This document shows, one piece after another, positions 4,547 to 29,102 of a DNA stretch of 64,000 nucleotides (position 1 is its first letter; each line of letters opens with the position of its first letter). The translations under genes and the position numbers were made by a program. The notes beneath the pieces are model-generated. The model searched no databases. It saw only the letters and a list, made by a program, of their open reading frames with translations, and had not been told where the DNA came from. Source of the stretch: Tepidamorphus gemmatus (GTDB taxonomy: Bacteria; Pseudomonadota; Alphaproteobacteria; Rhizobiales; Tepidamorphaceae); NCBI RefSeq assembly GCF_004346195.1, contig NZ_SMAK01000007.1, positions 62,001 through 126,000 on the forward strand. Reading direction: 5' to 3'.

Positions 4547-4728
4547 CTGTACCTCCGTCTGGTTATCATTGGTCCACCTGCGGCGGACTTGGGATCGGAG
4601 CATATCGTCGCTTTCACGAGCTTGTCACCCGTGCACCTCGCCAGAATTGCATGCGGAGCGGAACAATTGCAGAACAAATCTATTAGTCGACTTGATTCCG
4701 TAGCGGAAGAACAGGTGCGGAAACTGCC

Positions 4729-13295: not shown

Positions 13296-13340
13296 GTCCC
13301 TCCCCCCATGCAAGCCCCGGCCGGCGAGACCAAAACGAGA

Positions 13341-13364
13341 CGGGGCAGCCGTCAGGCCGCCCCG
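13341..13364 (-). terminator. Stem-loop with T-run between TAXI binding protein and permease genes
   Basis: Arms 13341-13349 (CGGGGCAGC) and 13356-13364 (GCCGCCCCG) pair over 9 positions with one G-U, with a 6-base loop. On the transcribed minus strand it lies just after the binding-protein stop and is followed after five bases by TTTT (13332-13335). It fits a leaky intrinsic terminator or 3'-end stabiliser that gives more binding protein than permease. Confidence 0.45.
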
Positions 13365-13374
13365 CGAGGCCGGA

Positions 13375-14334
13375 TCACATCCAGCCGCGCTCCTTGTAGT
13401 ATTTCTCGGCCCCCGGATGCAGCGGCGCGCTCAGGCCCTGGCTGATCATCTCTTCTTCCTTGAGGGCGGCGAAGGCCGGGTGGAGGCTCTTGAATTCCTC
13501 GAAGTTCTCGAAGACCGCCTTGACGACGATGTAGACGATGTCCTCGGGAACGTCGGCAGAGGTGACCAGCGTCGCGCCGACGCCGAAGGTGGCCACGTCG
13601 TTGTCCTGACCGGCATAGGTGCCGGCCGGGATCGTTGCCATGCGGTAGTATGGCTTGTCGGAGATGAATGCCTCGATCTTGTCGTCGGCGACGTCGGCGA
13701 TCACGGCGTCGCAGCTCGACAGCGTCTCCTGGATCAGCGCGGAGGGATGGCCGACCGTGTAGAAGTAGGCGTCGATGTTGCCGTCGCACAGCGCCTGGCC
13801 GGTCTCCGCCGGCTTCAGTTCGGCGGCGAGCCGCAGCGCAGCGTTGTCGACCACGCCCGCCGCGGCCATTGCATCCCAGAGCGCCCGCTGGCCTGACCCG
13901 GGATTGCCGATGTTGACGGTCTTGCCGGCCAGATCGGTGTAGTTCCTGATCCCCGAATCAGCGCGCGCGACGAGTGTTGCCGGCTCGGCGTGCAGCGAGA
14001 ACACCGAGCGCAGCTTCTCGAACGGCTTGCCCTCCCACTGTGCGAGCCCGTTGTAGGCGTTCGACTGCACGTCCGACTGGGCAACGCCGAACTCCAGCTC
14101 GCCGGCCTGGATGGTGTTGACGTTGTAGACCGAGCCGCCGGTCGATTCCGCCGAGCAGCGGATGCCATGCTCCTTGCGGTCCTTGTTCACCAACCGGCAG
14201 ATCGCGCCGCCGGTCGGATAATAGACCCCGGTGATGCCGCCGGTTCCGATCGAGATGAACTGCTGCTGAGCCGAGGCCGAACCCGCGCCCAGCGCGAGGC
14301 TGGCGGCAATGGCTCCAAGGACGATCTTGCGCAT
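13375..14334 (-). CDS. TAXI family TRAP transporter solute receptor
   Basis: A 319-aa periplasmic receptor. The ATG at 14334 has GGAGAAG six bases upstream and starts a clear signal peptide (MRKIVLGAIAASLALGAGSA, cleavage after SASA). The mature N-terminus QQQFISIGTGGITGVYYPTGG is the TAXI hallmark, and the basic-Cys stretch HGIRCSAESTGGSVYNVN follows. Later blocks include GNPGSGQRALWDAM and IDAYFYTVGHPSALIQE. TAXI receptors of known function bind glutamate, 2-oxoglutarate or related acids. Here the ligand is unknown. It is the first gene of the TAXI-UspA operon. Confidence 0.94.
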   Translation of the reverse strand: MRKIVLGAIAASLALGAGSASAQQQFISIGTGGITGVYYPTGGAICRLVNKDRKEHGIRCSAESTGGSVYNVNTIQAGELEFGVAQSDVQSNAYNGLAQWEGKPFEKLRSVFSLHAEPATLVARADSGIRNYTDLAGKTVNIGNPGSGQRALWDAMAAAGVVDNAALRLAAELKPAETGQALCDGNIDAYFYTVGHPSALIQETLSSCDAVIADVADDKIEAFISDKPYYRMATIPAGTYAGQDNDVATFGVGATLVTSADVPEDIVYIVVKAVFENFEEFKSLHPAFAALKEEEMISQGLSAPLHPGAEKYYKERGWM

Positions 14335-14547
14335 GTCTTCTCCTTCCGACTGTGTCGGGCGCCGCAAGCCGGCGCCTGTTCATGTATTCGGGAGCTCCGA
14401 CGCGGACTTGAGCCCGCTACCTGCGCCCATGCAGACACTGTCGCCGAAAAGGGAATGTCGACTCAACCCTCGATTCAGGAATCGCATTGCCGAATAATGC
14501 TGCGTCGCAGCATCCGTTGCTGCTCGGAATGCCGGGAGACCCCCCGA

Positions 14548-15345
14548 TTAATTCGACAGGCGGGTCGGATCGAACTGATGCAGATCCTTGAGAAGCGCGA
14601 TCAGGCGCGACACCTGATGGGCGGCGAGCGCTCGGCCCTTGGCCTCGCTCCCGGCCTGCGCATTGCCGCAGGCGCCACTGGCCTGAAGATCGGCGGTGAG
14701 CCAGGCAAATGCCGTCCGCCCGGCGCCGCGCAGCACCTCGAACTCGTGCTCCATGGCGACCGAGGCCGGTACGAAGTCGGCGCAACGATCCTGCCGGACC
14801 GCATCGGGACGCAGATGGAGCATCAGCGAGGTCTCGACCTCGCCGGCATGGAAGCCGTGCGCGAGCTCGACGTCGGCGAACAGGCCGTCGGGGCAGCCGA
14901 GCCGCATCCAGCTCGTCGCGACGACCAGCATGCGGTGGCGGATCCTGAGATCGCGGGCGGCAAGCCCCATCACGTCGTTGTTGCCGCCGTGCGAGCTGAT
15001 GATCACGAGCTTGCGCAGCCCGGCACGCGCCACCGACTCGCCCAGTGCGATCAGCATGTCGAGCAGAAGATGGGCGCCGACTGTGAGCGTGCCGGGAAAT
15101 CCGTGGTGCTCGTCCGACTTGCCGACCGCGAGCGTCGGCAGGATCAGTGCCGGCAGCGCGTCCGGCATCTGCGCCACCGCTTCGGCAATCAGCCCGTCGG
15201 CGATGAAGGTATCGACGCCGGTCGGCAGGTGTGGTCCGTGCTGTTCCGTCGCGGCGATCGGCAGCACGCCGATCCACGCCGAGGTGTCGGTGTCGAAGTC
15301 GGTCGTCGTGAGGTCGTGCCAGAAGCGGCGCGGTGGAAGGGTCAC
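14548..15345 (-). CDS. Creatininase-family amidohydrolase (copy 1)
   Basis: A 265-aa metal-dependent amidohydrolase. The metal-binding signature TEQHGPHLPTGVDT (about residues 33-46) supplies Glu, His and Asp, VIISSHGGNND (about 113-123) supplies a second His, and HAGEVETSLML (about 165-175) the late Glu. The family includes creatininase, formamidopyrimidine-type deformylases (ArfB) and inosose hydrolases, all opening amide bonds in rings or formamides. A related but clearly different copy lies at 17492. A 14-bp palindrome sits 44 bp upstream. The substrate is unknown. The flanking deaminases point to an N-heterocycle (inference). Confidence 0.9.
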   Translation of the reverse strand: MTLPPRRFWHDLTTTDFDTDTSAWIGVLPIAATEQHGPHLPTGVDTFIADGLIAEAVAQMPDALPALILPTLAVGKSDEHHGFPGTLTVGAHLLLDMLIALGESVARAGLRKLVIISSHGGNNDVMGLAARDLRIRHRMLVVATSWMRLGCPDGLFADVELAHGFHAGEVETSLMLHLRPDAVRQDRCADFVPASVAMEHEFEVLRGAGRTAFAWLTADLQASGACGNAQAGSEAKGRALAAHQVSRLIALLKDLHQFDPTRLSN

Positions 15346-15388
15346 GACACTCTCCGGAGCACACTGTCCGCCTGACGGCCTGTTGTAG

Positions 15389-15402
15389 CCGCCGATCGGC
15401 GG
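15389..15402. promoter_or_regulatory. 14-bp perfect palindrome upstream of creatininase copy 1
   Basis: CCGCCGATCGGCGG at 15389-15402, 44 bases before the start codon, is a plausible operator. The rest of the 373-bp gap (15346-15718) has no frame with protein-like content and no other clear signal. Confidence 0.35.
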
Positions 15403-15718
15403 TCGGTCGAGGACGGGCGGGCCGCGGATGCGCGGGTCACGCCCGTGCCGGGCGCCATCGGCACAGGCTCAAGCCACCCTGAACAACCAGCAACGCCGTC
15501 GTTGCGGACGGCCGGAGGCTTATCCGGGATCGCAAGCGCACCGCGGCTGCATGGACGCGGTCCGATCCCGCCTACCCGCGTCGCTCCGGCCGGGCTGCCC
15601 TGCCGGACGACAGCGGGCACAGGGTCTGATCCGAACATCCGCGACTTGCCGATCGCCGCGACCGGATATCGGCTACTTCCATGGCAGGGGCGCATGCGGA
15701 AGCTGCCATCGCTGCCAC

Positions 15719-17062
15719 CTAGATCCCCTCGAGGAAACGCTTCGATGCCTCGCCGTGCTCGCGGCGCAGCCGGGCAACATCGACGCCGACCGGCATGCCG
15801 TCGACGACTTTCCATGCGCCGGCGATCATGACCCGGTCGGCCCTGTAGGCTCCGCACAGGACAAGTGCGGCGAGCGGATCGCCGGCGCCGGAAAACCGCA
15901 ATTCGTCGAGATCGAAGAAGGCGAGGTCGGCCTGCTTGCCGACCGCGATGGCGCCGATGTCGTCGCGGCCGAGGCAGCGGGCGGACCCCTCGCTCGCCCA
16001 GCGCAATACATCGTGATGGGTTACCGCACCGGCACCATAGGTCAGGCGGTTGATCATCAGCGCGTGGCGGACTCCCTCGATCAGGTTGGAATTGTCGTTG
16101 GAGGCCGAGCCATCAACGCCAAGCCCGACCGCTACGCCGGCCGCTTCCAGCTCCTTCGTCCGGCACTGTCCCGACGCCAGCACCATGTTCGAGGTCGGGC
16201 AGTGGCAGACGCCCATGCGGTGGCGGCCGAGCCGCTCGATCTCGGAATCGGTGAAGTGGATTCCGTGCGCGAGCCAGACCCGCGCATCGAGCCAGCCGAG
16301 ATCCTCCAGATAATCGACAGGCCGGCAGCCATAATGCGCGAGGCAATAGGCGTCCTCGTCACGGGTCTCGCCGAGATGAGTGTGGAGCCGGCAATCGAAG
16401 CGCTCGGCGAGAGCCAGCGACTCCCGCATCAGCCGTCGGGTTACCGTGAACGGTGCGCAGGGCGCCAGCGCAACGCGGATCAGGCTGCCGTCCGAGGTAT
16501 CGTGATACCTCGATAGTACCCGCTCGCAGTCGGCGAGGATGGTGTCCTCGTCCTGGACGACGCTGTCGGGCGGCAGGCCGCCATCCTTGACCGACAGGTT
16601 CATCGAGCCGCGCGTCACCGTCATGCGGATGCCGAGGCTCCGCGCCTCCTCGACCTGAATGTCGATCGCCCCCTCGAGACCCGAGGGGAACAGGTAGTGA
16701 TGATCGGACGCTGCCGTGCAGCCCGACATTATCAGCTCGGTCAGCGCAAGCCGCGTCGCCAGCCGGAACGCCTCGGGGGTGAGTCGACTCCAGATCGGGT
16801 AGAGCGCCTCGAGCCAGGCAAACAGCTCCTTGTTGATCGCGGCGGGATGGGCGCGGGTCAGCGTCTGAAAGAAGTGGTGGTGGGTGTTCACGAGCCCGGG
16901 CAGCACCACGTGGCGGCCGGCATCGAAGGTTGCGTCGACCGGGCCGGCCGGCGTCCGACCGGCGCCGACGAGCTCGACGATTCGGCCGCCCTCGATGACG
17001 ATGCCGCGTTGTGCCCCCTCGGCGAGAATGGCCACCGGGTCCCGGATCCAGAGCCTCGACAT
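15719..17062 (-). CDS. 8-oxoguanine deaminase-like amidohydrolase
   Basis: A 447-aa cytosolic metal-dependent aminohydrolase. Ligands of the TIM-barrel amidohydrolase superfamily are visible: NTHHHFFQTLTRA (His61-63), HTHLGET (about 229), AHGIHF (about 265) and GVDGSASND (about 316). The stretch VTRGSMNLSVKDGGLPPDSV is typical of the subgroup that contains characterised bacterial 8-oxoguanine deaminases, which convert 8-oxoguanine to urate and ammonia. Hydroxyatrazine-type hydrolases are close relatives, so the exact substrate is not certain. The RidA gene ends one base upstream, so the two are almost certainly one transcript. Confidence 0.85.
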   Translation of the reverse strand: MSRLWIRDPVAILAEGAQRGIVIEGGRIVELVGAGRTPAGPVDATFDAGRHVVLPGLVNTHHHFFQTLTRAHPAAINKELFAWLEALYPIWSRLTPEAFRLATRLALTELIMSGCTAASDHHYLFPSGLEGAIDIQVEEARSLGIRMTVTRGSMNLSVKDGGLPPDSVVQDEDTILADCERVLSRYHDTSDGSLIRVALAPCAPFTVTRRLMRESLALAERFDCRLHTHLGETRDEDAYCLAHYGCRPVDYLEDLGWLDARVWLAHGIHFTDSEIERLGRHRMGVCHCPTSNMVLASGQCRTKELEAAGVAVGLGVDGSASNDNSNLIEGVRHALMINRLTYGAGAVTHHDVLRWASEGSARCLGRDDIGAIAVGKQADLAFFDLDELRFSGAGDPLAALVLCGAYRADRVMIAGAWKVVDGMPVGVDVARLRREHGEASKRFLEGI

Positions 17063-17063
17063 C

Positions 17064-17453
17064 TCAGTCCACCTTCGCCGCGATGACCTCGACCTCGACC
17101 TTGAATTCCGGGCGGGCGAAGCCGGACACCACCATCAGGGTCGAAGCCGGCGGCGGATTGCCGACAAAGCGGTCGCGCACCGCCATGTACGGCTTGAGAT
17201 ACTCCCGATCCGACACGAAGGCGTTGATGCGCACGATATCGGTGAGCGCCATGCCGGCCTCGGCGAGGATCACCCTGATGGTCTCGAAGCACAGCCGTGC
17301 CTGCTCGCCCGCATCGTCGGGCACGGCGCCATCGACGCCGATGCCGAGTTGGCCGGAGCAGACCATCCAGCGCGCGCCCGGCGGCACCACGACGCCGTGG
17401 CTGTAGGCGGCGAACGGAGGGTGGATGCCTGGGGGTGTGTGATGCGATAGCAT
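17064..17453 (-). CDS. RidA family protein (Rid/YjgF/UK114)
   Basis: A 129-aa trimeric-fold protein. It shows the family core WMVCSGQLGIGVDG, QARLCFETIRVILAEAGM and a C-terminal FKVEVEVIAA. The arginine of canonical RidA imine deaminases appears in the DIVRINAFVSD block (about residue 80), but the residues before the C-terminus differ from archetypal RidA, so it may be a diverged Rid subgroup. RidA proteins hydrolyse reactive enamines/imines, and diverged members work in heterocycle degradation. It is translationally adjacent to the 8-oxoguanine-deaminase-like gene (1-bp gap) and divergent from creatininase copy 2 with only 38 bp between start codons. Confidence 0.88.
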   Translation of the reverse strand: MLSHHTPPGIHPPFAAYSHGVVVPPGARWMVCSGQLGIGVDGAVPDDAGEQARLCFETIRVILAEAGMALTDIVRINAFVSDREYLKPYMAVRDRFVGNPPPASTLMVVSGFARPEFKVEVEVIAAKVD

Positions 17454-17491
17454 GCGGCGCCCGCCTGTGACGTTCTGATCCGGAGACGCTA

Positions 17492-18286
17492 ATGACCGGC
17501 CCCCGCCGCTGGCAAGACCTGACCACCGTGGATTTCGAGACGCTCGATCCCGAACGTACCGTCGCCGTGCTGCCGGTGGGCGCGATCGAGCAGCACGGAC
17601 CGCACCTGCCGCTGGCCACCGACGTGCTGATCGCCGAACGGATCGCCGCAGCCGCGGTGGAGCGGGCCGATGGTCTGCCGGTGCTGCTGATGCCGACCAT
17701 GCCGGTCGGCAAGTCGAACGAGCACATCGACTTTCCCGGCACGCTGACGCTTCCGGTCGAGACGTTGATCGGGCTGTGGCGCGAGATCGGCCGCAGCGTG
17801 GCGCGCTCCGGCCTGAGGAAGCTTCTCTTCATCAACTCCCACGGCGGCCAGCCGCAGGTCATGGAGATCGTCGGACGCGACTTGCGCATTGGCGAGGAGA
17901 TGCTGTGCGTCACCTCGAGCTGGTGGCACATGGGCCTGCCCGACGGGCTGATCCCGGAGACCGAGCGGCGGCACGGCATCCATGGCGGCACGGTGGAGAC
18001 CTCGCTGATGCTGCACCTCGCCCCAGACCTCGTGCGGATGGACCGGGCCGATGACTTCACGCCGGTGATGGCCGACATCGCCGACGAGACCGAACGGCTG
18101 ACCTATGTGGGCGGTGTCGGCATCGGCTGGCAGGCGCAGGACATCCATCCCGCCGGCGTCGCCGGCAATGCCCGCGCGGCAACGGCGGCGATCGGAGCGG
18201 CGATCTTCGAGCATGTGGTCGCCGGCTATGCGACGCTGCTGCGCGAGGTGTCCGCCTTCCCGCTGGCGCGGCTCAAGCGGCGCTGA
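17492..18286 (+). CDS. Creatininase-family amidohydrolase (copy 2)
   Basis: A 264-aa metal-dependent amidohydrolase with all family ligands: IEQHGPHLPLATD (about residues 33-45), FINSHGGQPQVMEI (about 113) and the late IHGGTVETSLMLHL. It keeps the copy 1 motifs WHDL/WQDLTT near the N-terminus and VGKSNEHIDFPGTL, so both belong to one subfamily but differ along their length. CCGGAG lies 6 bases before the ATG. The next gene, a binding protein, is 238 bp downstream on the same strand. Likely role: hydrolysis of a cyclic amide or formamide intermediate (family knowledge). The exact substrate is unknown. Confidence 0.9.
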   Translation: MTGPRRWQDLTTVDFETLDPERTVAVLPVGAIEQHGPHLPLATDVLIAERIAAAAVERADGLPVLLMPTMPVGKSNEHIDFPGTLTLPVETLIGLWREIGRSVARSGLRKLLFINSHGGQPQVMEIVGRDLRIGEEMLCVTSSWWHMGLPDGLIPETERRHGIHGGTVETSLMLHLAPDLVRMDRADDFTPVMADIADETERLTYVGGVGIGWQAQDIHPAGVAGNARAATAAIGAAIFEHVVAGYATLLREVSAFPLARLKRR

Positions 18287-18323
18287 GCCGATGCTGACGC
18301 CGGGCTGTGCAGACGCAAATCCG

Positions 18324-18342
18324 CTGCCCGATTCTTGGGCAG
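18324..18342. repeat. Hairpin downstream of creatininase copy 2
   Basis: CTGCCC (18324-18329) and GGGCAG (18337-18342), extendable by one A-T and one G-U pair to an 8-bp stem with a 3-base loop. It lies 38 bases after the stop codon. There is no T-run, so it is only a possible terminator or processing site. Confidence 0.3.
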
Positions 18343-18374
18343 CCGTCGCCGACATGCTATCGACGTGCAACGGT

Positions 18375-18407
18375 GCGACATCGGAAATGCCGACGCTGGC
18401 ATGTCGC
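18375..18407. promoter_or_regulatory. Inverted repeat upstream of the THI5-like binding-protein gene
   Basis: Outer arms GCGACAT (18375-18381) and ATGTCGC (18401-18407) enclose a shorter ATGCC/GGCAT pair. It lies about 118-150 bp upstream of the start at 18525. It could be an operator or leader structure. It does not match the conserved core of a TPP riboswitch. Confidence 0.35.
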
Positions 18408-18524
18408 TTGCTGCGTCGGCAATTTCGCGGGCGGGCCAGCGGCGGTCAGCGGGCCCGACGCATCGTGAGGACCCGGACGGTTTCGAGGGGAAGCCGTCCG
18501 CCGATCAACGGGAGGACTGGCAAC

Positions 18525-19535
18525 ATGGCCAAGTTTGCATTGCAGGCGGCAGCCGCCGCCGTTCTGGCCGGTCTGGGACTGGCCCAGCCGGCGTGGTCGC
18601 TCGACGAGGTCACCTTCGGCACCAACTGGCTCGCCCAGGCCGAGCATGGCGGCTTCTACCAGGCGGTCGCCGATGGCACTTACGAGAAATATGGGCTCAA
18701 GGTCACCATCCGTCAGGGTGGCCCGCAGGCGGGCAACCAGGCGCTGCTGATCGCCGGCCAGATCCAGTTCTACATGCAGGGCAACATGCTCTCGCCCCTC
18801 CATGCGGCCGAGCAGGACATCCCGGTTGTCGAGGTGGCGGCGATCTTCCAGAAGGAGCCGCAGGTGCTGCTGGCGCATCCTGACCAGGGTCTGGAAACGC
18901 TGGCGGATCTGGCCAAGCTGCCGACGCTGTTCCTGTCCAAGGACGGCTACTCCTCCTATTTCCAGTGGATGAAGACGGCCTTCCCGGGCTTCCGCGACGA
19001 ACAGTACAAGCCCTACACCTTCAATCCGGCACCGTTCATCGCCGACAAGCAGTCCGCGCAGCAGGGCTACATCACCTCCGAACCCTTCGCGATCCAGAAG
19101 GAAGCCGGCTGGATGCCGAAGATATTCCTGCTCGCCGACTACGGTTTCGACACCTATTCGACGCTGATCGAGACGACGCCGGCCTACCTGGAAGCCAATC
19201 CGGACATCGTGAAGCGCTTCGTCGAGGCCTCGATCATCGGCTGGTACAACTACCTCTATGGCGACAATGCCGCCGCCAACGAGCTCATCAAGAAGGACAA
19301 TCCGGAGATGACCGACGAGCAGATCGCGTTCTCGATCAAGACGATGAAGGAGTACGGGATCGTCGATTCCGGCGATACCGAGACGCTCGGCATCGGCTGC
19401 ATGAGCGACGAGCGGCAGAAGAGCTTCTATGACAAGATGGTCGCGGCGGGCGTGATCAAGGCAGGAATCGACTACACCAAGACCTACACCACCGAATTCG
19501 TCTGCAAGGGCCTCGGGCTGGAGCTGAAGAAGTAG
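18525..19535 (+). CDS. ABC transporter substrate-binding protein, NMT1/THI5-like
   Basis: A 336-aa periplasmic binding protein. GGAGG lies 9 bases before the ATG, and the first residues form a Sec signal (MAKFALQAAAAAVLAGLGLA, cleavage after PAWS). The mature protein opens with VTFGTNWLAQAEHGGFYQA, typical of the ThiY/RibY-like NMT1 group that binds pyrimidines, thiamine precursors or flavins, with VTIRQGGPQAG and YGFDTYSTLIETTPAYLE following. It is the first gene of an ABC importer (ATPase 330 bp downstream, then permease). The neighbouring deaminases suggest an aromatic N-heterocycle ligand (inference). Confidence 0.92.
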   Translation: MAKFALQAAAAAVLAGLGLAQPAWSLDEVTFGTNWLAQAEHGGFYQAVADGTYEKYGLKVTIRQGGPQAGNQALLIAGQIQFYMQGNMLSPLHAAEQDIPVVEVAAIFQKEPQVLLAHPDQGLETLADLAKLPTLFLSKDGYSSYFQWMKTAFPGFRDEQYKPYTFNPAPFIADKQSAQQGYITSEPFAIQKEAGWMPKIFLLADYGFDTYSTLIETTPAYLEANPDIVKRFVEASIIGWYNYLYGDNAAANELIKKDNPEMTDEQIAFSIKTMKEYGIVDSGDTETLGIGCMSDERQKSFYDKMVAAGVIKAGIDYTKTYTTEFVCKGLGLELKK

Positions 19536-19607
19536 GAGCGGCATCGGCGGCGCTGCGATCGGGAGCGCGCGGGTCGGGCTGGCTGCCGAAGCAGGCGATG
19601 CCCGCTC

Positions 19608-19704
19608 GTCATCCCGGCCGAGCGAACCGAAGACCCGGGGTCGGGAGTCTCCGATGGTCCGGGCGCCCGGACCCCGGATCGGCCTGAAGACCGTCCGGGA
19701 TGAC
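19608..19704. repeat. Intergenic palindromic repeat, copy A
   Basis: A 97-bp element bounded by GTCATCCCGG and CCGGGATGAC, with internal CCCCGGATC and short sub-palindromes. It fills the middle of the 330-bp gap between the binding-protein and ATPase genes of the THI5-like importer. No coding frame is evident in the rest of the gap. Related copies are at 35581-35679, 43326-43423 and 57241-57310. Confidence 0.6.
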
Positions 19705-19865
19705 CGGAAGGGTCGGGACGCGAATCCGCGGCGGCACCGGCGCCGCTGAAGTCCTTGGGCGCCGCCTGCCTGCCGGGAATGGGGCGGCCTGCGCGGAACC
19801 CTTCCGATGCACGGCCTCCCCCAGTCCGCCGCGGACGACATGACGTGAATGGAACCGAACACCTG

Positions 19866-20642
19866 ATGACTTCCTCCAACGCCGCTCCGCCGATCGTGTC
19901 GCTTCAGGGCGTCAACAAGGTCTTCTCCAACGGCACCGTCGCGTTGAAGGACATGACGTTGGACATCCGGATGGGCGAATTCCTCAGCCTGCTCGGGCCT
20001 TCGGGCTGCGGCAAGTCGACGGTGCTGCGGCTGATCGCAGGGCTCGGCGAGCCATCGTCGGGCCGGATCGTCTGGCCGGCACCGGACGATCACGAGATCG
20101 GCTTCGTGTTCCAGGAGCCGACACTGATGCCGTGGGCGACCGTGTTCAGCAATGTCTGGCTGCCGCTCAGGCTCAAGGGCGTGTCGAAGGCGGCGGCGCG
20201 GGGGCAGGTGATGCAGGCACTCGAGATGGTCGGCCTCGACGGATTCGCGCAGGCCTATCCGCGCGAGCTGTCGGGCGGCATGAAGATGCGTGTCTCGATC
20301 GCCCGCGCGCTGGTCACCCGGCCGAAGCTCCTGCTGATGGACGAGCCGTTCGCCGCCCTCGACGAGATCACCCGGTTCAAGCTCAACAACGATCTGCTGC
20401 ACCTGTGGGAGACATTCGGCTGGACGGTGGTGTTCGTCACCCACTCGGTATTCGAATCGGTCTACCTGTCGAGTCGGATCGTGGTGATGGCGGCGCGTCC
20501 CGGCCGCGTCGTCGAGGATCTGGCCATCGACGCCCCCTATCCGCGCGACGACGATTTCCGTACCTCGACCCTCTACAACGATCATTGCCGAACCGTGTCG
20601 CATGCCCTGCACCGGGCAATGGAGGCGAGGGTGGTGGCATGA
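19866..20642 (+). CDS. ABC transporter ATP-binding protein (nitrate/sulfonate/pyrimidine type)
   Basis: A 258-aa cytoplasmic ATPase. Walker A is GPSGCGKST (about residue 46), Q-loop FQEPTLMPW, signature LSGGMKMR, Walker B LLLMDEP followed by the D-loop FAALDE, and the switch His in VTHS. This order and the MPW after the Q-loop mark the TauB/SsuB/ThiZ class that works with NMT1-type binding proteins. The ATG at 19866 is chosen over an in-frame GTG 21 bases upstream; neither has a strong Shine-Dalgarno. Its stop overlaps the permease start (ATGA). Confidence 0.93.
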   Translation: MTSSNAAPPIVSLQGVNKVFSNGTVALKDMTLDIRMGEFLSLLGPSGCGKSTVLRLIAGLGEPSSGRIVWPAPDDHEIGFVFQEPTLMPWATVFSNVWLPLRLKGVSKAAARGQVMQALEMVGLDGFAQAYPRELSGGMKMRVSIARALVTRPKLLLMDEPFAALDEITRFKLNNDLLHLWETFGWTVVFVTHSVFESVYLSSRIVVMAARPGRVVEDLAIDAPYPRDDDFRTSTLYNDHCRTVSHALHRAMEARVVA

Positions 20643-21502
20643 GCGCGGTCGACTCGAAGCCTGCTCACTCCGGTCTCGACACGGCGGCCGGACGGCCCGA
20701 AGCCGATCGCCGGATGCTCGGCGAGCGGCTGCTGCGCATTCTCGTGCCCGTCGCGATGCTCGGGCTCCTGGTGCTCATCTGGGCCTGGTACGTCACGGCC
20801 TACAACGTCCCGCACTACATCCTGCCGAGCCCGAAGCGGGTCGCGCAGGCGATGATCGAGGACCGGGCACTGCTGTTCACGGCGCTGCTGGTGACGCTGA
20901 AGATCACCTTCACCGCGCTGGCGCTGGCGCTGATCGGCGGCGTGGCGCTCGCGGTGCTTCTGGTCCAGTCGCGCTGGATCGAGCTGGCGCTCTACCCCTA
21001 TGCGGTGATCCTGCAGGTGACGCCGATCGTCGCGATTGCCCCGCTGATCCTGATCTATGCACCTTCCACCCAGGTGGCGCTGCTGATCTGCGCCTGGATC
21101 GTCGCGTTCTTTCCGATCCTGTCGAACACCGCGCAGGGGCTCAAGAGCGTCGACCACAACCTCCTCAACCTGTTCGAGCTGTATGGGGCGAGCCGCTGGC
21201 AGATGCTGTACCTGCTGCGGCTGCCGGCCGCCCTGCCCTATTTCCTGACGGGGCTGCGGATCGGGGGTGGGCTGGCGCTGATCGCCGCCGTCGTCGCCGA
21301 GTTCGCCGCCGGGTCGGCCGGCGCCGGTTCCGGGCTTGCCTTCCGGTTGCTCGAATCGCAGTTCCGGCTGAACATCCCGCGCCTGTTCGCGGCGCTGATC
21401 CTGCTGTCGCTGACGGGCGTGCTGATCTTCTTCGCGACCACCTTCATCTCGCACATGCTGCTCAGAAAGTGGCACGAGAGCGCGCTGAAGCGGGAGAACT
21501 GA
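20639..21502 (+). CDS. ABC transporter permease (TauC/SsuC/ThiX-like)
   Basis: A 287-aa inner-membrane permease with six predicted spans. It has the family cue NVPHYILPSPKRVAQAM after the first helix and the EAA loop FELYGASRWQMLYLLRLPAA (about residues 180-199) for docking the ATPase. It is translationally coupled to the ATPase by a 4-bp overlap, and the deaminase gene starts 4 bp after its stop. The tight packing ties transport to the downstream cytosine-deaminase-like enzyme, so importer and enzyme most likely handle the same compound or its product. Confidence 0.93.
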   Translation: MSAVDSKPAHSGLDTAAGRPEADRRMLGERLLRILVPVAMLGLLVLIWAWYVTAYNVPHYILPSPKRVAQAMIEDRALLFTALLVTLKITFTALALALIGGVALAVLLVQSRWIELALYPYAVILQVTPIVAIAPLILIYAPSTQVALLICAWIVAFFPILSNTAQGLKSVDHNLLNLFELYGASRWQMLYLLRLPAALPYFLTGLRIGGGLALIAAVVAEFAAGSAGAGSGLAFRLLESQFRLNIPRLFAALILLSLTGVLIFFATTFISHMLLRKWHESALKREN

Positions 21503-21506
21503 ACGC

Positions 21507-22838
21507 ATGGCCACGGGCTTCGCCACGGTGCCGGCCGGCCGGCGCTACCGGATCGCGGGCGCGGTCGTGCCGAGCGCGCTGGTCGAGACGTCGGCGCGAC
21601 TTCCCGCCGCCGGCGACGGGCTGGTGCGGGCCGACATCGACATCGACGGCGCGACGATCACGTCGATCCATGCGCCGGGCACGGGGGCGCCGGCAGCCGA
21701 GGTGTTCGACATCCGCTCGGGCATGGTCTGGCCGGGCTTCGTCGACATGCACACCCATATCGACAAGGGCCACATCTGGCCGCGCCGGGCCAATCCGGAC
21801 GGAACCTTCATGGGCGCGCTGATGGCCGTCCAGGCGGATCGGGAGGCCAATTGGACGGCGGCCGACGTGGCGCGCCGCATGGATTTCTCGCTGCGCTGCG
21901 CCTATGCGCACGGCACGGTGCTGCTGCGGACCCATCTGGACTCGCTGCCGCCGCAGGATGCAATCTCCTGGCCGGTTTTCTCGCAGATGCGCGAGCGCTG
22001 GGCGGGACGGATCGACCTGCAGGCGGTATCGCTCGTGCCGATCGACTTCGTTCAGGACCGCGCCGCGTACGAGGCGCTTGCCGACCGGGTGAAACTGCAT
22101 GGCGGCGTGCTCGGTGCCGTCACCTTCATGTATCCCGGTCTCGACGACCTGCTCGACACGGTGTTCCGCACCGCGATGGACCGCGGGCTCGACCTCGACT
22201 TCCATACCGACGAATCGCAGGATCCGGACGAGCGGTCGCTGGCGCATGTGGCGGAAGCGGCGCTGCGCAACCGGTTCACCGGGCGGATCACCTGCGGCCA
22301 TTGCTGCTCCCTCGCCCGCCAGGACGAGGACGAGGCAAGCCGCACCATCGGCCGCGTCGCCGAGGCGGGCATTGCCATCGTCTCGCTGCCGATGTGCAAC
22401 ATGTACCTGCAGGACCGCCATGCCGGCCGCACGCCGCGTTCGCGCGGGGTGACGATGCTGCATGAACTGGCGCGCGCCGGCGTCGCGGTGGCGGTCGCCA
22501 GCGACAACACCCGCGATCCCTTCTACGCCTATGGCGATCTCGACATGGCGGAGGTGTTCCGCGAAGCGGTCAGGACAGCGCATTTCGACCACCCGGTCGG
22601 ACCATGGCCGGCAACCGTGGCGGCGACTCCCGGACAGATCCTGCGGCGGCCGGACAGGGGCATGCTGCGGACAGGCGGCCCCGCTGATCTCGTTCTGTTC
22701 TCCGCGCGCGACTGGTCGGAACTGCTGTCGCGCCCGCAGACGGACCGGACAGTCATCCGCGGTGGACAGCCGATCGACACGACGCCACCGGATTACCGCG
22801 AACTCGACGACCTGTTTGCCGCCCTGCACGAGGATTGA
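21507..22838 (+). CDS. Cytosine deaminase-like amidohydrolase (CodA family)
   Basis: A 443-aa amidohydrolase. Metal-site motifs: MHTHIDKGH (His82, His84), FHTDESQDPDE (His about 232), ITCGHCCSLA (His about 263) and the catalytic Asp in VASDNTRDPF (about 332). The HIDKGH form and the DNTRDPF block place it with CodA-like cytosine/isoguanine/ammelide-type deaminases rather than dihydroorotase or guanine deaminase. It would remove an exocyclic amino group as ammonia. The gene is 4 bp after the permease stop and 2 bp before the FAD oxidase. The real substrate may be a modified pyrimidine. Confidence 0.87.
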   Translation: MATGFATVPAGRRYRIAGAVVPSALVETSARLPAAGDGLVRADIDIDGATITSIHAPGTGAPAAEVFDIRSGMVWPGFVDMHTHIDKGHIWPRRANPDGTFMGALMAVQADREANWTAADVARRMDFSLRCAYAHGTVLLRTHLDSLPPQDAISWPVFSQMRERWAGRIDLQAVSLVPIDFVQDRAAYEALADRVKLHGGVLGAVTFMYPGLDDLLDTVFRTAMDRGLDLDFHTDESQDPDERSLAHVAEAALRNRFTGRITCGHCCSLARQDEDEASRTIGRVAEAGIAIVSLPMCNMYLQDRHAGRTPRSRGVTMLHELARAGVAVAVASDNTRDPFYAYGDLDMAEVFREAVRTAHFDHPVGPWPATVAATPGQILRRPDRGMLRTGGPADLVLFSARDWSELLSRPQTDRTVIRGGQPIDTTPPDYRELDDLFAALHED

Positions 22839-22840
22839 GC

Positions 22841-24241
22841 ATGAGGGATATCGCCGCACTGAAGACGGCGCTCGAAGGCCTGAAGATCGAGGACAATCCG
22901 GCGCTGGTGAAGCAGAAGAGCCGCGACTTCTTCTGGTACAGCCCGGTGCTGAAGCGCGAACTGGATCACGTCACCGCCGATCTGGTCGTCTCCCCGCGCA
23001 GCGAGGCGGAGATTCTGCGGGTGCTCGAGACCTGCTACCGGCACGACGTCCCCGTCACGGTGCGCGGCACCGGCACCGGCAATTACGGTCAGGCGATGCC
23101 GCTCGCCGGAGGTGTGGTGATGAATCTGGCCGAGATGAACCGGGTGCTGAAGATCTCGCCCGGCCGGCTGGTGGCGGAGCCCGGCGCAATTCTCCATGAC
23201 ATCGACGTCGCGGCCCGTGCCAGCAGCGGCCAGGAAATGCGGATGCATCCCTCGACGCTGAAGACCGCCTCGATCGGCGGATTCATCGGCGGCGGATCGG
23301 GCGGCGTCGGCTCGATCCGGTGGGGCGGTCTGCGCGACATCGGCAACGTGCTGCGCCTCAAGGTTGCCACCATGGAGGAGCGCCCGCGCCTCCTCGAACT
23401 CGACGGCTGGGACCTGCAGAAGGTCTGTCATGCCTACGGAACCAACGGCGTCATCACCGAGGTCGAGATCCCGCTGACGGCAGCCTATGACTGGATCGAC
23501 GTGATCGTCGGGTTCGACTCGTTCGAGCGGGCGGCTGCCTATGGCGACGATATCGGCAACCGCGACGGCCTCTTGCTGAAGCTCGTCTCGCCGATCGCCG
23601 CACCGATCCCGCAGGACTATTTCCTGCGCCACCGCCGATTCATCCCAGACGGCCGGCACATCTGCCTGGTGATGGTCGCGGCCCATGCGCTCGGCCCGCT
23701 GCTGGCGGTGACGCGGCGGCTCGGCGGCGAGGTGCTGTTCCGCTCGGATACGGCGGAGGACACCAAGGGCCTGCCGCCGGCCTACGAACTGTCGTGGAAC
23801 CACACCACGCTCAGGGGACTCAGGGTCGATCCGGGCATCACCTACCTGCAGGTGCTCTACCCCTATCCGAACCATCTCGATCTGGTCTCGCGCGTGCATG
23901 CCCATTTCGGCGACGAGGTGCTGGCGCATCTGGAATTCGTCCGCTTCGACGGCAACATCACCTGCTTCGGGCTGCCGATCGTGCGCTTCACCACCGAGGA
24001 GCGGCTCGACGAGATCATGCGCATCCACGAGGACATGGGGTGCGTCATCTTCAATCCGCACCGCTACACGCTCGAGGAAGGCGGGATGAAGCAGACCGAC
24101 GAGGTGCAGCTCGCCTTCAAGCGCGAGGCCGATCCGAAGGGGCTGCTCAACCCCGGCAAGATGATCGGCTGGGAGAAGCCCGACTTCGATTTCGGCTCAC
24201 GCCGCAACTACCTGTTCCCCGGCCTGCAGCCGGCCAGCTGA
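22841..24241 (+). CDS. FAD-linked oxidase (GlcD/PCMH-type FAD-binding)
   Basis: A 466-aa flavoprotein of the FAD_binding_4 class. The PCMH domain runs about residues 45-225 with VTVRGTGTGNYGQAMPLAGG for FAD phosphate contacts and SIGGFIGGGSGGVGSIRWGG. The C-terminal cap domain ends with KGLLNPGKMIGW, typical of D-lactate/glycolate oxidase relatives. The ATG at 22841 is used; a TTG six bases earlier would overlap the preceding gene's stop. It sits in the deaminase operon, so it may oxidise a hydroxylated or partly reduced ring intermediate. No specific reaction can be assigned. Confidence 0.88.
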   Translation: MRDIAALKTALEGLKIEDNPALVKQKSRDFFWYSPVLKRELDHVTADLVVSPRSEAEILRVLETCYRHDVPVTVRGTGTGNYGQAMPLAGGVVMNLAEMNRVLKISPGRLVAEPGAILHDIDVAARASSGQEMRMHPSTLKTASIGGFIGGGSGGVGSIRWGGLRDIGNVLRLKVATMEERPRLLELDGWDLQKVCHAYGTNGVITEVEIPLTAAYDWIDVIVGFDSFERAAAYGDDIGNRDGLLLKLVSPIAAPIPQDYFLRHRRFIPDGRHICLVMVAAHALGPLLAVTRRLGGEVLFRSDTAEDTKGLPPAYELSWNHTTLRGLRVDPGITYLQVLYPYPNHLDLVSRVHAHFGDEVLAHLEFVRFDGNITCFGLPIVRFTTEERLDEIMRIHEDMGCVIFNPHRYTLEEGGMKQTDEVQLAFKREADPKGLLNPGKMIGWEKPDFDFGSRRNYLFPGLQPAS

Positions 24242-24249
24242 TCCCCGCC

Positions 24250-24831
24250 ATGCGGGTTCTCGTGGTCTACGCGCATCCGGTCGAGACCAGCTTCTGCGCC
24301 GCCCTGCACCGCTGCGTGGTCTCGACACTGGCCGACGGCGGCAACGCGGTCGATGATTGCGATCTCTACGCCGAGGGGTTCGACCCGGTGCTGTCGCGCG
24401 CCGAACGGATCGGCTATCACGACGTGCCGGGCAACCGCGCGGCCGTTGCCGCCCATGTCGAGCGGCTCATCGCGGCCGAGGCGCTGGTGCTGGTGTTTCC
24501 GGTCTGGAACTTCGGCTTCCCGGCGATCCTCAAGGGCTGGTTCGACCGGGTGTTCCTGCCCGGCGTCTCCTTCGTCATGCGGGACGGCAAGGTTGTGCCG
24601 AACCTTTTCCACCTGAAGCGGATCGTCGCCGTCACCACCTACGGCGGCTCGCGCCTGCGGGCGATCCTGGCGGGCGATCCGCCGCGGCGGATCGTCATGC
24701 GGGTGCTGCGCGCCACCGCACCGCGCGCGCGGATCCGCCATCATGCACTCTACGACATGAGCCGGGCCGACCAGGCGAGGCGCTCGGCCTTTCTGGAGAG
24801 GACAAGAATGTTGATGGAGACGATCCGGTGA
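24250..24831 (+). CDS. Flavodoxin-fold NAD(P)H oxidoreductase (copy 1)
   Basis: A 193-aa flavodoxin_2 family protein (NQO/MdaB type). The N-terminal FMN/FAD phosphate loop reads MRVLVVYAHPVETSFCAALH, the second flavin loop is FPVWNFGFPAILKGWFDRVF, and TTYGGSRLRA is the third. Such enzymes pass two electrons from NAD(P)H to quinones, azo compounds or free flavin. It starts 8 bp after the FAD oxidase and its stop overlaps the GTG start of copy 2. The pair may supply reduced flavin or re-reduce quinone products of the oxidase (inference). Confidence 0.88.
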   Translation: MRVLVVYAHPVETSFCAALHRCVVSTLADGGNAVDDCDLYAEGFDPVLSRAERIGYHDVPGNRAAVAAHVERLIAAEALVLVFPVWNFGFPAILKGWFDRVFLPGVSFVMRDGKVVPNLFHLKRIVAVTTYGGSRLRAILAGDPPRRIVMRVLRATAPRARIRHHALYDMSRADQARRSAFLERTRMLMETIR

Positions 24832-25415
24832 GGGTTCTGCTCGTCTATTGCCACCCGTGCGAAGAGAGCTTCAACCGGGCGATCCGCGACCGCGCCCTGG
24901 CGACGCTGGCGGAACGAGACCATGAGATCGAACTCGTCGACCTCTATGCCGAGGGCTTCGATCCGGTGATGTCGGGCGAGGAGCGGCGCGGCTACCACAC
25001 GCCCGGCGACAACGAGGTGCCGGTCGCGCACCATATCGCCCTGCTGCGCTGGGCCGAGGTGCTGGTGTTCGTCTATCCGACCTGGTGGTTCGGGTTGCCC
25101 GCCATGCTCAAGGGCTGGCTCGACCGGGTGTTCGTGCCCCATGCGACCTTCTCGATGCCGACCGAGACCACGTCGATGGGGCCGGTGCTGACCAACATCC
25201 GGCGGATCGTCGTGATCACCACCTGCGGCGCCTCGTGGCTCATGTCGAAGCTTGTCGGCGAGCCCGGCCGGCGCACCATCCTGCGTGGATTGCGGCTTCT
25301 CTGCCATCCGCGCTGCCGTACCACCTATCTGGCCCATTACCGGATGGATTCCTCGACGCCACAGAGCAGAACGGCCTATCTGGCGCGCGTCGAACAGACA
25401 TTACGGCGGCTTTGA
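24828..25415 (+). CDS. Flavodoxin-fold NAD(P)H oxidoreductase (copy 2)
   Basis: A 195-aa paralogue of the upstream protein with the same layout: MRVLLVYCHPCEESFNRAI, FVYPTWWFGLPAMLKGWLDR and ITTCGASWLMSKL. PTWWFGLPA is closer to the typical NQO-like consensus than copy 1. The start is the GTG at 24828 overlapping the previous TGA (GTGA), which aligns the N-termini of both copies. It is the last gene of the catabolic run; the AT-richer 88 bp that follow belong to the marR promoter region. Tandem retention of two copies suggests a heterodimer or two substrates (inference). Confidence 0.87.
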   Translation: MRVLLVYCHPCEESFNRAIRDRALATLAERDHEIELVDLYAEGFDPVMSGEERRGYHTPGDNEVPVAHHIALLRWAEVLVFVYPTWWFGLPAMLKGWLDRVFVPHATFSMPTETTSMGPVLTNIRRIVVITTCGASWLMSKLVGEPGRRTILRGLRLLCHPRCRTTYLAHYRMDSSTPQSRTAYLARVEQTLRRL

Positions 25416-25503: not shown

Positions 25504-25998
25504 ATGAAGAAGTGGTACGAGGATTCGGTCGGTCTGCACCTGACACGGGCGGCCCGGCTCCATAGGGCGCGAGCCCATTCCATGCTCGGGGAGATCGGTG
25601 TCCACCCCGGACAGGAGAATGTCCTGCTCGTCCTGCTCGAGGACGACGGTCAGGCCATGACCAAGCTCGCCGCAGCATTGAAGGTCAAGCCACCGACCGT
25701 CACCAAGATGGTTGCGCGGATGGCCGCGCAGGGACTGGTGCGTCGCATCGCCTCGCAGACCGACGCGCGCAGCGCCAATGTCTTCCTCACCGACGAGGGC
25801 CGCGCCCGCGGCACCGAGCTGAAGACTCGTTGGAAGCGGCTCGAGGACATGACGGTACGCCTCATTCCGGAGAAGGATCGGCGCCGACTGACCAAGCTCC
25901 TGATGGCGATCGAGGAGTCGCTCGGCGAAGGGGCCGAGACCGACGCGGATACCGTCATCAGCGTCGCGTTCGACGAGGCCGACGAATCGGCGGCCTGA
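25504..25998 (+). CDS. MarR family transcriptional regulator
   Basis: A 164-aa winged-helix regulator. The recognition region reads MTKLAAALKVKPPTVTKMVARM (helix-turn-helix, split about residues 54-75), then the wing RRIASQTDARSANVFLTDEGR with the DxR motif typical of MarR. It follows the two quinone-reductase-like genes on the same strand with an 88-bp AT-richer gap and precedes an aminotransferase by 94 bp. MarR proteins next to such reductases often sense phenolic or quinone ligands, so the reductases or the aminotransferase are likely targets. No clear palindromic operator is visible. Confidence 0.9.
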   Translation: MKKWYEDSVGLHLTRAARLHRARAHSMLGEIGVHPGQENVLLVLLEDDGQAMTKLAAALKVKPPTVTKMVARMAAQGLVRRIASQTDARSANVFLTDEGRARGTELKTRWKRLEDMTVRLIPEKDRRRLTKLLMAIEESLGEGAETDADTVISVAFDEADESAA

Positions 25999-26092: not shown

Positions 26093-27271
26093 GTGCTGAA
26101 GTCAGTCGCCGCGTTCGAGCGGATCGGCGAGGAGAATGCGTTTGCCGTGCTGGCACGGGCAACCGAGCTGGCGGCGCGCGGCCGCGACATCATCAATCTG
26201 GGGATCGGTCAGCCCGACTTCCGCACGCCCGACCATATCGTCGAGGCGGCGGTCAAGGCGCTGCGCGACGGCCATCACGGCTACACGCCGGCGACCGGCA
26301 TCCTGGCGCTGCGCGAGGCGGTCGCGGCGGACCTCGACCGCCGCTTCCGCGTCACGGTCGATCCTGGCCTCGTGATGATCGTGCCGGGCGGCAAGGTCAC
26401 CATGTTCATGGCGATCCTGATGTTCGGTGAGCCCGGCGCAGAGATCCTCTATCCGGATCCCGGCTTCCCCATCTACCGGTCGATGATCGAGTTCACCGGC
26501 GCCACGCCGGTGCCGGTGCCGATCCGCGAGGAGAACGGCTTTGCCTTCTCGGCCGCCGAGACGCTGTCGCTGATCACGCCGCGGACAAGGCTGCTGATCC
26601 TCAACAGCCCGGCCAACCCGACCGGTGGCGTCACACCCAAACCGGAAATCGACGCGCTGGTGGCCGGCCTTGCCGCCCATCCCGATGTCGCCATCCTGTC
26701 CGACGAGATCTACGGGCAGATGACCTTCGACGGGCTCGCCCACCAGACCCTGCTCGCCTATCCGGAGATCCGAGACCGGCTGATCCTGCTCGATGGTTGG
26801 TCGAAGACCTACGCGATGACCGGCTGGCGGCTGGGCTATTCGATCTGGCCGAAGCGGCTCCATGATCTCGCCCGCAAGCTGGCGGTGAACTCCTACTCCT
26901 GCGTCAATGCCGCCGCCCAGTATGCCGGCATCGCCGCGCTGGAGGGGCCTCAGGATGCGGTCCGCGACATGGTGGCCGAGTTCGACCGGCGCCGCGCCGT
27001 GGTGGTGGAGGGCCTGAACGCCCTGCCGGGCATCTCCTGCGCTACGCCGAAGGGCGCCTTCTATGCCTTCCCGAATGTCAGCCGGACGGGATGGAAGGCG
27101 AAGGCGCTCGCCTCGGCCCTGCTGGAGGAGGCCGGCGTGGCCGTCATCGGCGGGCCGGATTTCGGAGTCCACGGCGAGGGCTACATCCGCCTGTCCTACG
27201 CCAACTCGACCGAGAACATCCGCCGGGCGCTCGAGCGGATGGGCGAGTTCCTCACCGCAAAGGCGGCCTGA
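26093..27271 (+). CDS. Class I/II PLP-dependent aminotransferase (aspartate/aromatic type)
   Basis: A 392-aa fold-type I aminotransferase. GIGQPDF (about residue 38) and YTPATGILALREAV match the substrate-binding N-terminal part. NSPANPTGG (about 166-174) carries the PLP-contact Asn, SDEIYGQM the Asp and Tyr, and DGWSKTYAMTGWRLGY (about 231-246) the Schiff-base Lys and phosphate Arg. The last part holds the carboxylate Arg in GYIRLSYANS. It transfers the amino group of an amino acid to 2-oxoglutarate or similar. If aromatic amino acids are substrates it would feed the indolepyruvate oxidoreductase at 59324 (inference). It overlaps the convergent modC by 20 bp. Confidence 0.9.
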   Translation: MLKSVAAFERIGEENAFAVLARATELAARGRDIINLGIGQPDFRTPDHIVEAAVKALRDGHHGYTPATGILALREAVAADLDRRFRVTVDPGLVMIVPGGKVTMFMAILMFGEPGAEILYPDPGFPIYRSMIEFTGATPVPVPIREENGFAFSAAETLSLITPRTRLLILNSPANPTGGVTPKPEIDALVAGLAAHPDVAILSDEIYGQMTFDGLAHQTLLAYPEIRDRLILLDGWSKTYAMTGWRLGYSIWPKRLHDLARKLAVNSYSCVNAAAQYAGIAALEGPQDAVRDMVAEFDRRRAVVVEGLNALPGISCATPKGAFYAFPNVSRTGWKAKALASALLEEAGVAVIGGPDFGVHGEGYIRLSYANSTENIRRALERMGEFLTAKAA

Positions 27272-28394
27272 TGCGGCCGGGTCGGTCGGGGCCGGCCGGC
27301 ACCATCAGGTGGATGCCTTCCGCGAGCAGCAACACAGAGACCTCGACGCCTGGCTCGAGCCGCTCGCGCCGCGCCACGTGAAGCGGCGCAAGGACATGCA
27401 GCCGGTGGCCGGTGCCGGCCACCCTGAGCACCACCTGGATCGCCTGTCCGACCTGCAGCACCTCGGCGGCCGTCCCGCGCACAAGGGTTCCGTCGGCACG
27501 GCGGGCATGGCCGTCGTCTCCGACCAGCACGACGAAGCCTTCGGGAATGACCCAGCTCGCACGGTCCCCGACTGCAAGATCGCTGCGCAGCGGCGTCGCC
27601 AGCCTGATACCCGACCAGTCGACGAACGTGCGGCCCTCCGCGGGCCGGTGCTCGAGGACCGTCGCCTCGAACAGGTTGCGCAGGTCTACGAGCCCGGCAA
27701 TCGCCGGGCTGGCCGGTCGGGTCGTAATCTCCGCGACGGAGCCGGTCTGCAAGATGCGGCCGCGATCGAGAACGGCAATCCGATCCGCCAGTCTCACCGC
27801 CTCGTCGAGATCGTGCGTGACCAGCACCGTCGGCATCGCCAGCAGGTGTCTCAGTTCGGCGATCTCGCGATACAGGCGCTTGCGGGTCACCCGGTCGACG
27901 GCGGAGAACGGTTCGTCGAGGAGCAGAACCTTCGGGTCGCGGGCGAGCGCCCGGGCCACGGCGACGCGCTGCTGCTGGCCGCCGGACAATTCCGCCGGGC
28001 GGCGCGACTCAAGCCCGTCGAGGTGGACCGTTGCGAGCAGCTGGCGCGCCCGCCCCGCCGGATCGGCAATGCCCGGCCCAAGCGCCGCGGCGACATTGTC
28101 GAGCGCGCTCATGTGCGGGAACAGCGCGTAGGACTGGAAGACCAGCCCGACGCGGCGGCGATGCGGCGCGATGCGGATGCGCCGCGCCGGATCGAACCAG
28201 GTTTCGCCGTCCACCGCGATGCGGCCGCGCGCGGGATGATACAGCCCGGCGATCGAGCGCAGGATCGTCGACTTGCCGCTTCCTGACGGCCCGACCAATG
28301 CCAGCACCTCGCCGGGCGCGACGGCAAACCGCGCATCGAGGGGGATCGGCGCGTCCTGCGCGAGCTCGACGTGAAGCCCGCCAGCCGCCGTCAT
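27252..28394 (-). CDS. modC: Molybdate ABC transporter ATP-binding protein
   Basis: A 380-aa ATPase of the molybdate importer. Walker A GPSGSGKST (about 36), Q-loop FQSYALFPHM, signature LSGGQQQR, Walker B VLLLDEPFSAVD and switch VTHDLDEA are intact. The C-terminal part from about residue 290 is a TOBE/mop-type domain (EPGVEVSVLLLAEGIHLMV) that in ModC binds molybdate and gates activity. It is longer than the roughly 350 aa of E. coli ModC because of an extra linker. ModB overlaps it by 4 bp, and its 3' end overlaps the aminotransferase gene tail to tail by 20 bp. Confidence 0.92.
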   Translation of the reverse strand: MTAAGGLHVELAQDAPIPLDARFAVAPGEVLALVGPSGSGKSTILRSIAGLYHPARGRIAVDGETWFDPARRIRIAPHRRRVGLVFQSYALFPHMSALDNVAAALGPGIADPAGRARQLLATVHLDGLESRRPAELSGGQQQRVAVARALARDPKVLLLDEPFSAVDRVTRKRLYREIAELRHLLAMPTVLVTHDLDEAVRLADRIAVLDRGRILQTGSVAEITTRPASPAIAGLVDLRNLFEATVLEHRPAEGRTFVDWSGIRLATPLRSDLAVGDRASWVIPEGFVVLVGDDGHARRADGTLVRGTAAEVLQVGQAIQVVLRVAGTGHRLHVLAPLHVARRERLEPGVEVSVLLLAEGIHLMVPAGPDRPGRIRPPLR

Positions 28395-29059: not shown

Positions 29060-29102
29060 CGTTCGATCGCCGCGCCGGCCCGGGCCTGTCCCGCCCGGAT
29101 CC

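Follow-up and report, generated by a model that had tools for sequence, protein, structure and literature searches.

Introduction

In the Rut uracil pathway a pyrimidine ring is opened in a flavin-dependent reaction with the help of a RidA-family protein. For the pteridine ring, Fan et al. 2013 reportedly found pterin-6-carboxylate and pterin to be good substrates of Arad3529 and are said to have proposed an undescribed pterin degradation pathway. Pterin deaminases have already been published, namely Arad3529 from Agrobacterium radiobacter K84 and PDA from Variovorax sp. F1, and removal of the 2-amino group from pterins is documented for the Variovorax and Agrobacterium enzymes in the sections of the F1 report considered here (PMC9513972). 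According to the same sections, the F1 enzyme comprises 399 residues and acts on folic and pteroic acid, Arad3529 and Variovorax enzymes share 36-37% identity (37% for the F1 enzyme), an 'endoribonuclease' gene lies downstream of the Variovorax pterin deaminase gene, and the branch formed by these pterin deaminases also holds predicted cytosine and cyclic-amidine deaminases (PMC9513972). Those sections nowhere mention creatininase, RidA, a transporter, FAD or an oxygenase.

A flavin enzyme has also been deposited, as PDB entries 6v42 and 6v43 (released 2020-12-02); its folate role is that of the deposited title of 6v42, 'Crystal structure of the flavin oxygenase with cofactor bound involved in folate catabolism'. 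Roles in pterin/folate breakdown have already been assigned to a pterin deaminase and to a flavin enzyme. In the open-licence literature, which leaves most subscription papers outside its scope, we found no paper naming 6v42 or 6v43 and no description of the later ring-opening steps or of a full pathway; two riboflavin-catabolism papers, in the portions considered, mention neither folate nor creatininase. The locus analysed here had been called an undescribed catabolic system in a sequence-only reading. This is only partly right because pterin deaminases are published and 6v42 is deposited, and what stands of it is that no account of the remaining steps was found in the open-licence literature. 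Here we describe a gene cluster that is likely to serve the uptake and catabolism of pterins, the pteridine-ring portion of folates.

Results

Gene content and organization of the locus

All coordinates are positions in the window, the whole 64-kb stretch of DNA that was analysed. The locus and its immediate downstream neighbours comprise the following genes.

14548-15345, minus strand: creatininase-fold hydrolase 1 (creA); PF02633, 228 bits
15719-17062, minus strand: 8-oxoguanine deaminase-family amidohydrolase, accessory second deaminase; NCBIfam PRK08203, 660 bits, cut-off 532
17064-17453, minus strand: RidA-family protein, imine/enamine hydrolase by family; PF01042, 74.5 bits
17492-18286, plus strand: creatininase-fold hydrolase 2 (creB); PF02633, 256 bits
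18525-19535, plus strand: NMT1/THI5-type periplasmic binding protein; PF09084, 80.3 bits
19866-20642, plus strand: ABC transporter ATPase; PF00005, 113.7 bits, scored on a longer ORF from 19755
20639-21502, plus strand: ABC transporter permease; PF00528, 82.6 bits, scored on a longer ORF
21507-22838, plus strand: CodA-like amidohydrolase, probable pterin deaminase, annotated as cytosine deaminase; PRK07583, clade and active-site signature
22841-24241, plus strand: VAO-fold FAD enzyme; about 66% identical to PDB 6v42
24250-24831, plus strand: flavodoxin-fold NAD(P)H reductase 1; PF02525, 105 bits, scored on a longer ORF
24828-25415, plus strand: flavodoxin-fold NAD(P)H reductase 2; PF02525, 118.5 bits, scored on a longer ORF
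25504-25998, plus strand: MarR-family regulator, possible cluster regulator; PF12802/PF01047
26093-27271, plus strand: PLP aminotransferase, membership of the system uncertain; PF00155

Every gene named in the sequence-only reading exists, and the stretch 14548-25415, for which ten genes had been claimed, holds eleven. The tight junctions were as claimed: the ATPase and permease genes overlap by 4 bp (20639-20642), 4 bp separate the permease gene from the CodA-like gene, 2 bp separate the latter from the ATG of the FAD gene at 22841 (an alternative TTG start at 22835 gives a 4-bp overlap), and the FAD gene is followed after 8 bp by reductase 1, which overlaps reductase 2 by 4 bp. The RidA and 8-oxoguanine deaminase genes, 1 bp apart on the minus strand, had been described as a facing unit. 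They are divergent instead, since RidA stands back to back with creatininase 2, 38 bp from its ATG; creatininase 1 lies 373 bp past the 8-oxoguanine deaminase gene on the same strand. An Rfam scan of window positions 8000-31000 gave no match at gathering thresholds.

On the flanks, a TAXI-family TRAP transporter with fused permease and binding protein adjoins creatininase 1 (10680-14367), and a TAXI binding-protein gene occupies the identical position in two genomes from the same family as the window. Molybdate ABC transporter genes lie immediately 3' of the aminotransferase gene (27252-29924), the ModB- and ModA-type proteins scoring above cut-off and the ModC-like ATPase below it.

The FAD enzyme is a full-length homolog of 6v42

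The FAD enzyme is the key to identifying the system. It is 65.7% identical to PDB 6v42 over 464 residues, end to end, and 6v42 is its sole close solved relative, with 732.6 bits compared to 59.9 bits for the next chain. In structure comparison 6v42 gave a Z of 45.7, compared to 29.5 for the next entry, and stood at Foldseek rank 1. The fold is thus shared with 6v42/6v43 and the identity extends across the whole enzyme, well above other VAO-fold enzymes. Based on the title of 6v42 and on the gene neighbourhood, we infer that the protein may be a pterin/folate-pathway oxygenase.

This type of enzyme is common. Among 397 genomes sampled from the window's order, 138 gave matches to the 6v42 chain at E <= 1e-100, a count that takes in the window's own genome and some genomes with only 46-50% relatives; the best genome matches reach 75-76% identity. 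The FAD enzyme was also present in 141 plasmid records, 109 of which are from Rhizobium. Several genomes (loci L030, at 3776-5113, L060, L077 and L121) have, close to the main cluster, another paralog of the FAD enzyme with 40-47% identity.

The CodA-like amidohydrolase lies apart from cytosine deaminase

The CodA-like protein scores 654.8 bits against NCBIfam PRK07583, cytosine deaminase, above the curated cut-off of 403, a result that provides a family name only. With E. coli CodA it shares the amidohydrolase fold, an alignment over 401 residues and the catalytic His, Glu and Asp residues. The two differ in their placement and active-site signature. In a tree of 27 rows (23 cluster-linked proteins, one unlinked relative, E. 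coli CodA and two paralogs of about 30-33% identity), the 24 rows of the window type split from E. coli CodA and the two paralogs with 100/100 support; two cluster-linked proteins with long branches (L040 and L187) were left out of this tree and, when included, were both placed among the cluster-linked rows. At three diagnostic positions, which we picked from the alignment, K87 and N334 occur in 24/24 rows and T309 in 23/24 (Ser in L183), whereas on the CodA side K87 is replaced by Thr or Ala, N334 by Asp or Cys and T309 by Tyr; E. coli CodA itself carries T, Y and D in place of K87, T309 and N334. The window protein therefore falls within the FAD-enzyme-linked deaminases and apart from cytosine deaminase. 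The unlinked relative (L039) has the same signature and no other cluster genes nearby. From family placement, the clade of FAD-enzyme-linked deaminases would appear to hold the characterised pterin deaminases, and the CodA-like protein is probably a pterin deaminase.

Related clusters in a second class and their likeness to published pterin deaminases

Family f86 belongs to the same phylum as the window and to another class. The amidohydrolase of one genome (G733) was matched in 15 of 299 f86 genomes at E <= 1e-90, and loci were taken in from G733 itself (L182) and from ten others of these 15 genomes. Among the ten loci, one of which (L209) ends at a contig end, the FAD enzyme is near in nine, a creatininase in nine and RidA in eight. 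The gene directly 3' of the amidohydrolase gene is RidA in L182 and three of the ten other loci; five others have RidA elsewhere in the cluster. The f86 amidohydrolase is 400 residues long and is 34-45% identical to the CodA-like proteins of the clusters (median 37%, 84 rows). 'Endoribonuclease', the name given to the gene downstream of the Variovorax deaminase, is a RidA-family name. To the extent of the published sections considered, the gene order reported for Variovorax matches that of these f86 loci, and the 36-37% identity reported for Arad3529 and Variovorax enzymes is close to that separating the f86 protein from the cluster CodA-like proteins. Equating f86 with the family of Variovorax is a guess, and a 16S search of f86 genomes yielded no hit.

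The first Variovorax PDA primer, used as a degenerate pattern on 398 genomes of the phylum, matched in six. These belong to a single genus (g66) within the window's order, and their matches are more than 200 kb from the FAD gene or on other contigs. With all three PDA primers and up to three mismatches, only g66 loci were matched, and the f86 loci gave no close match, the nearest being a single 5' match with four mismatches (L195). The link to the F1 enzyme is hence drawn from family, length, gene order and reported identity.

In one f86 genome (L216, 1-6313), the CodA-like cluster has beside it a Klebsiella-type FAD enzyme together with an ABC importer and a relative of 8-oxoguanine deaminase (37%), an arrangement that suggests a swapped deaminase.

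Conservation of the cluster

A whole-genome search with the CodA-like protein gave matches in 19 of 61 genomes, the window's own included. The 18 others are all of the window's order, and from each of them the best locus was compared. The FAD enzyme is beside the CodA-like gene, directly downstream, in 16/18, and the gene layout is therefore not due to chance. A reductase, RidA and all three importer genes are each present in 14/18, a creatininase in 12/18, MarR in 7/18 and 8-oxoguanine deaminase in 5/18; these counts are lower bounds because the contigs of three loci (L027, L029 and L040) are short and stop inside or close to the cluster. The pair of creatininases seen in the window recurs in only three of the 18, all in the window's family. 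The neighbourhood comparison thus bears out the expectation that homologous genes are neighbours in other genomes.

Starting from the FAD enzyme, we compared 82 loci, two of them from plasmids and the others the 80 best among at least 579; these 80 relatives are mostly from Hyphomicrobiales, inferred to be the window's order. The set is rich in Mesorhizobium and Rhizobium, its members are not independent, and contig ends truncate some of its loci. It has the CodA-like gene in 82/82, a reductase in 81/82, all three importer genes in 74/82, RidA in 70/82, a creatininase in 66/82, MarR in 15/82 and 8-oxoguanine deaminase in 9/82, where one of these nine genes matches at only 26%. The core that recurs widely consists of the ABC importer, amidohydrolase, FAD enzyme, reductase, RidA and creatininase.

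Related gene sets were found on two Rhodobacterales plasmids, a Nitratireductor plasmid and a Klebsiella plasmid, in which a PDR/VanB-type reductase gene replaces the flavodoxin-fold reductases, and in a record that is labelled Roseateles and flagged as unverified. Relatives of the aminotransferase that are 76-88% identical lie near the cluster in eight loci (L023, L024, L025, L031, L035, L080, L081 and L093); the other loci have 28-31% relatives or none. Cobalamin genes, dimethylglycine-dehydrogenase-like, LysR, EamA and other neighbouring families look lineage-specific and outside the parts list.

Other neighbours were seen on individual plasmids. PaoABC-type molybdenum hydroxylase genes are near the cluster on a Rhizobium plasmid (L041, 1-3692) and an Agrobacterium plasmid (L042, 15208-19012). 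On the Nitratireductor plasmid (L125, 3849-7708 and 16297-19549), hydantoinase/oxoprolinase, ureidoglycolate lyase and ring-hydroxylating dioxygenase genes surround the core, hinting at ureido-acid products.

Accessory proteins

The minus-strand deaminase shares the family score of PRK08203, its 660 bits exceeding the NCBIfam equivalog cut-off, and its nearest solved structures are 3hpa and 7ww2. Relatives at least 58% identical are found in 18 of 61 genomes, the window's own included. In six of these (G000, G004, G007, G017, G021 and G047) the gene is adjacent to the cluster; in the other twelve it lies away from the cluster or in a genome that has none. Its linkage to the core is not constant, and we regard it as accessory because only a minority of clusters have it and it is often elsewhere in the genome. 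We take it to be an addition of particular lineages; a role with oxidised pterins, for instance isoxanthopterin, is speculation.

Both creatininases, which are 48% identical to each other, belong to the creatininase fold only, with 96.1 and 107.7 bits against NCBIfam TIGR04448 (cut-off 235), and creA scores too low for the NCBIfam creatininase, MftE and IolN families. The binding protein has only two solved relatives, 4nmy and 3ix1, of which 3ix1 is a formylaminopyrimidine binder. Reductase 2 is 44% identical to reductase 1 and its solved relatives are NQO-like.

Discussion

The evidence presented here consists of gene identity, family placement and conservation, and the catalytic steps below and their order are read from these. 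The NMT1-type ABC importer, whose binding protein resembles a formylaminopyrimidine binder, would take in pterins, for example pterin or pterin-6-carboxylate from oxidised folates. Judging from its family placement, the CodA-like amidohydrolase would then remove the 2-amino group to give a lumazine. The 6v42-type FAD enzyme, with O2 and electrons from the flavodoxin-fold reductases, may oxidise the lumazine, as its gene neighbourhood and the deposited title of 6v42 suggest; one or both creatininase-fold enzymes could hydrolyse a cyclic amide product and RidA an imine or enamine product, freeing ammonia. Flavin-dependent ring opening with a RidA-family helper is shared with the Rut pathway; unlike that pathway, the window has a VAO-fold FAD enzyme, not one of the RutA type, and adds a deaminase and creatininase-fold enzymes. 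It is quite possible, though somewhat less likely than not, that these genes represent a complete and unpublished aerobic pathway in which a VAO-fold oxygenase opens the lumazine ring, creatininase-fold hydrolysis and RidA follow, and interchangeable deaminases feed the pathway in different bacteria, CodA-like in some and 8-oxoguanine-deaminase-like, for oxidised pterins, in others.

The sequence-only reading had proposed that an aminated N-heterocycle is taken up and broken down by one pathway, and a single pathway is supported because the genes form a widely conserved cluster. That independent catabolic genes became adjacent by chance is extremely unlikely: the 8-oxoguanine deaminase, MarR and aminotransferase genes do vary among genomes, but the CodA-like gene and the reductase accompany the FAD gene in all, and all but one, of the FAD-selected loci, and related sets recur in Rhodobacterales, Klebsiella and f86. 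The substrates named earlier, 8-oxoguanine and ring-opened purines (Fapy), are not supported. Creatininase-fold Fapy deformylases exist, and these and the minus-strand enzyme, which is above the curated 8-oxoguanine deaminase cut-off, would suit uptake and breakdown of such purines with 8-oxoguanine deaminase as the key enzyme. However, that deaminase is linked in only 5/18 and 9/82 loci and in many genomes is off-cluster or occurs without a cluster, the steady elements of the cluster are the CodA-like enzyme and the FAD enzyme of the 6v42 type, and 6v42 is assigned to folate catabolism, so that we consider this explanation very improbable.

Another aminopyrimidine-like substrate, such as hydroxymethylpyrimidine, 5-methylcytosine or a creatinine-like ring, would mean that the folate link of 6v42 does not transfer to the window. 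A thiamine-derived pyrimidine is the ligand of one of the two solved relatives of the binding protein, and the CodA-like protein exceeds the cut-off for the NCBIfam cytosine deaminase name, both of which speak for such a substrate, while the identity of the FAD enzyme to 6v42 and an amidohydrolase signature unlike that of CodA speak against it; on balance we judge it unlikely. The uptake and catabolism of pterins itself has to accommodate the absence of RidA from 12/82, of a creatininase from 16/82 and of the full importer from 8/82 loci, some of them cut by contig ends.

Folates and pterins are produced by many organisms, and mineralisation of the pteridine ring by bacteria is poorly described. 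In the sections of their report considered here, the Variovorax authors pose the question of whether the accumulating pteroic and deaminopteroic acids are broken down by bacteria, and in what way (PMC9513972). The cluster provides an ordered gene list for such pteridine-breakdown steps. If the proposed function is correct, many genes annotated as 'cytosine deaminase', 'creatininase' or 'FAD-binding oxidoreductase' would be those of pterin-breakdown enzymes.
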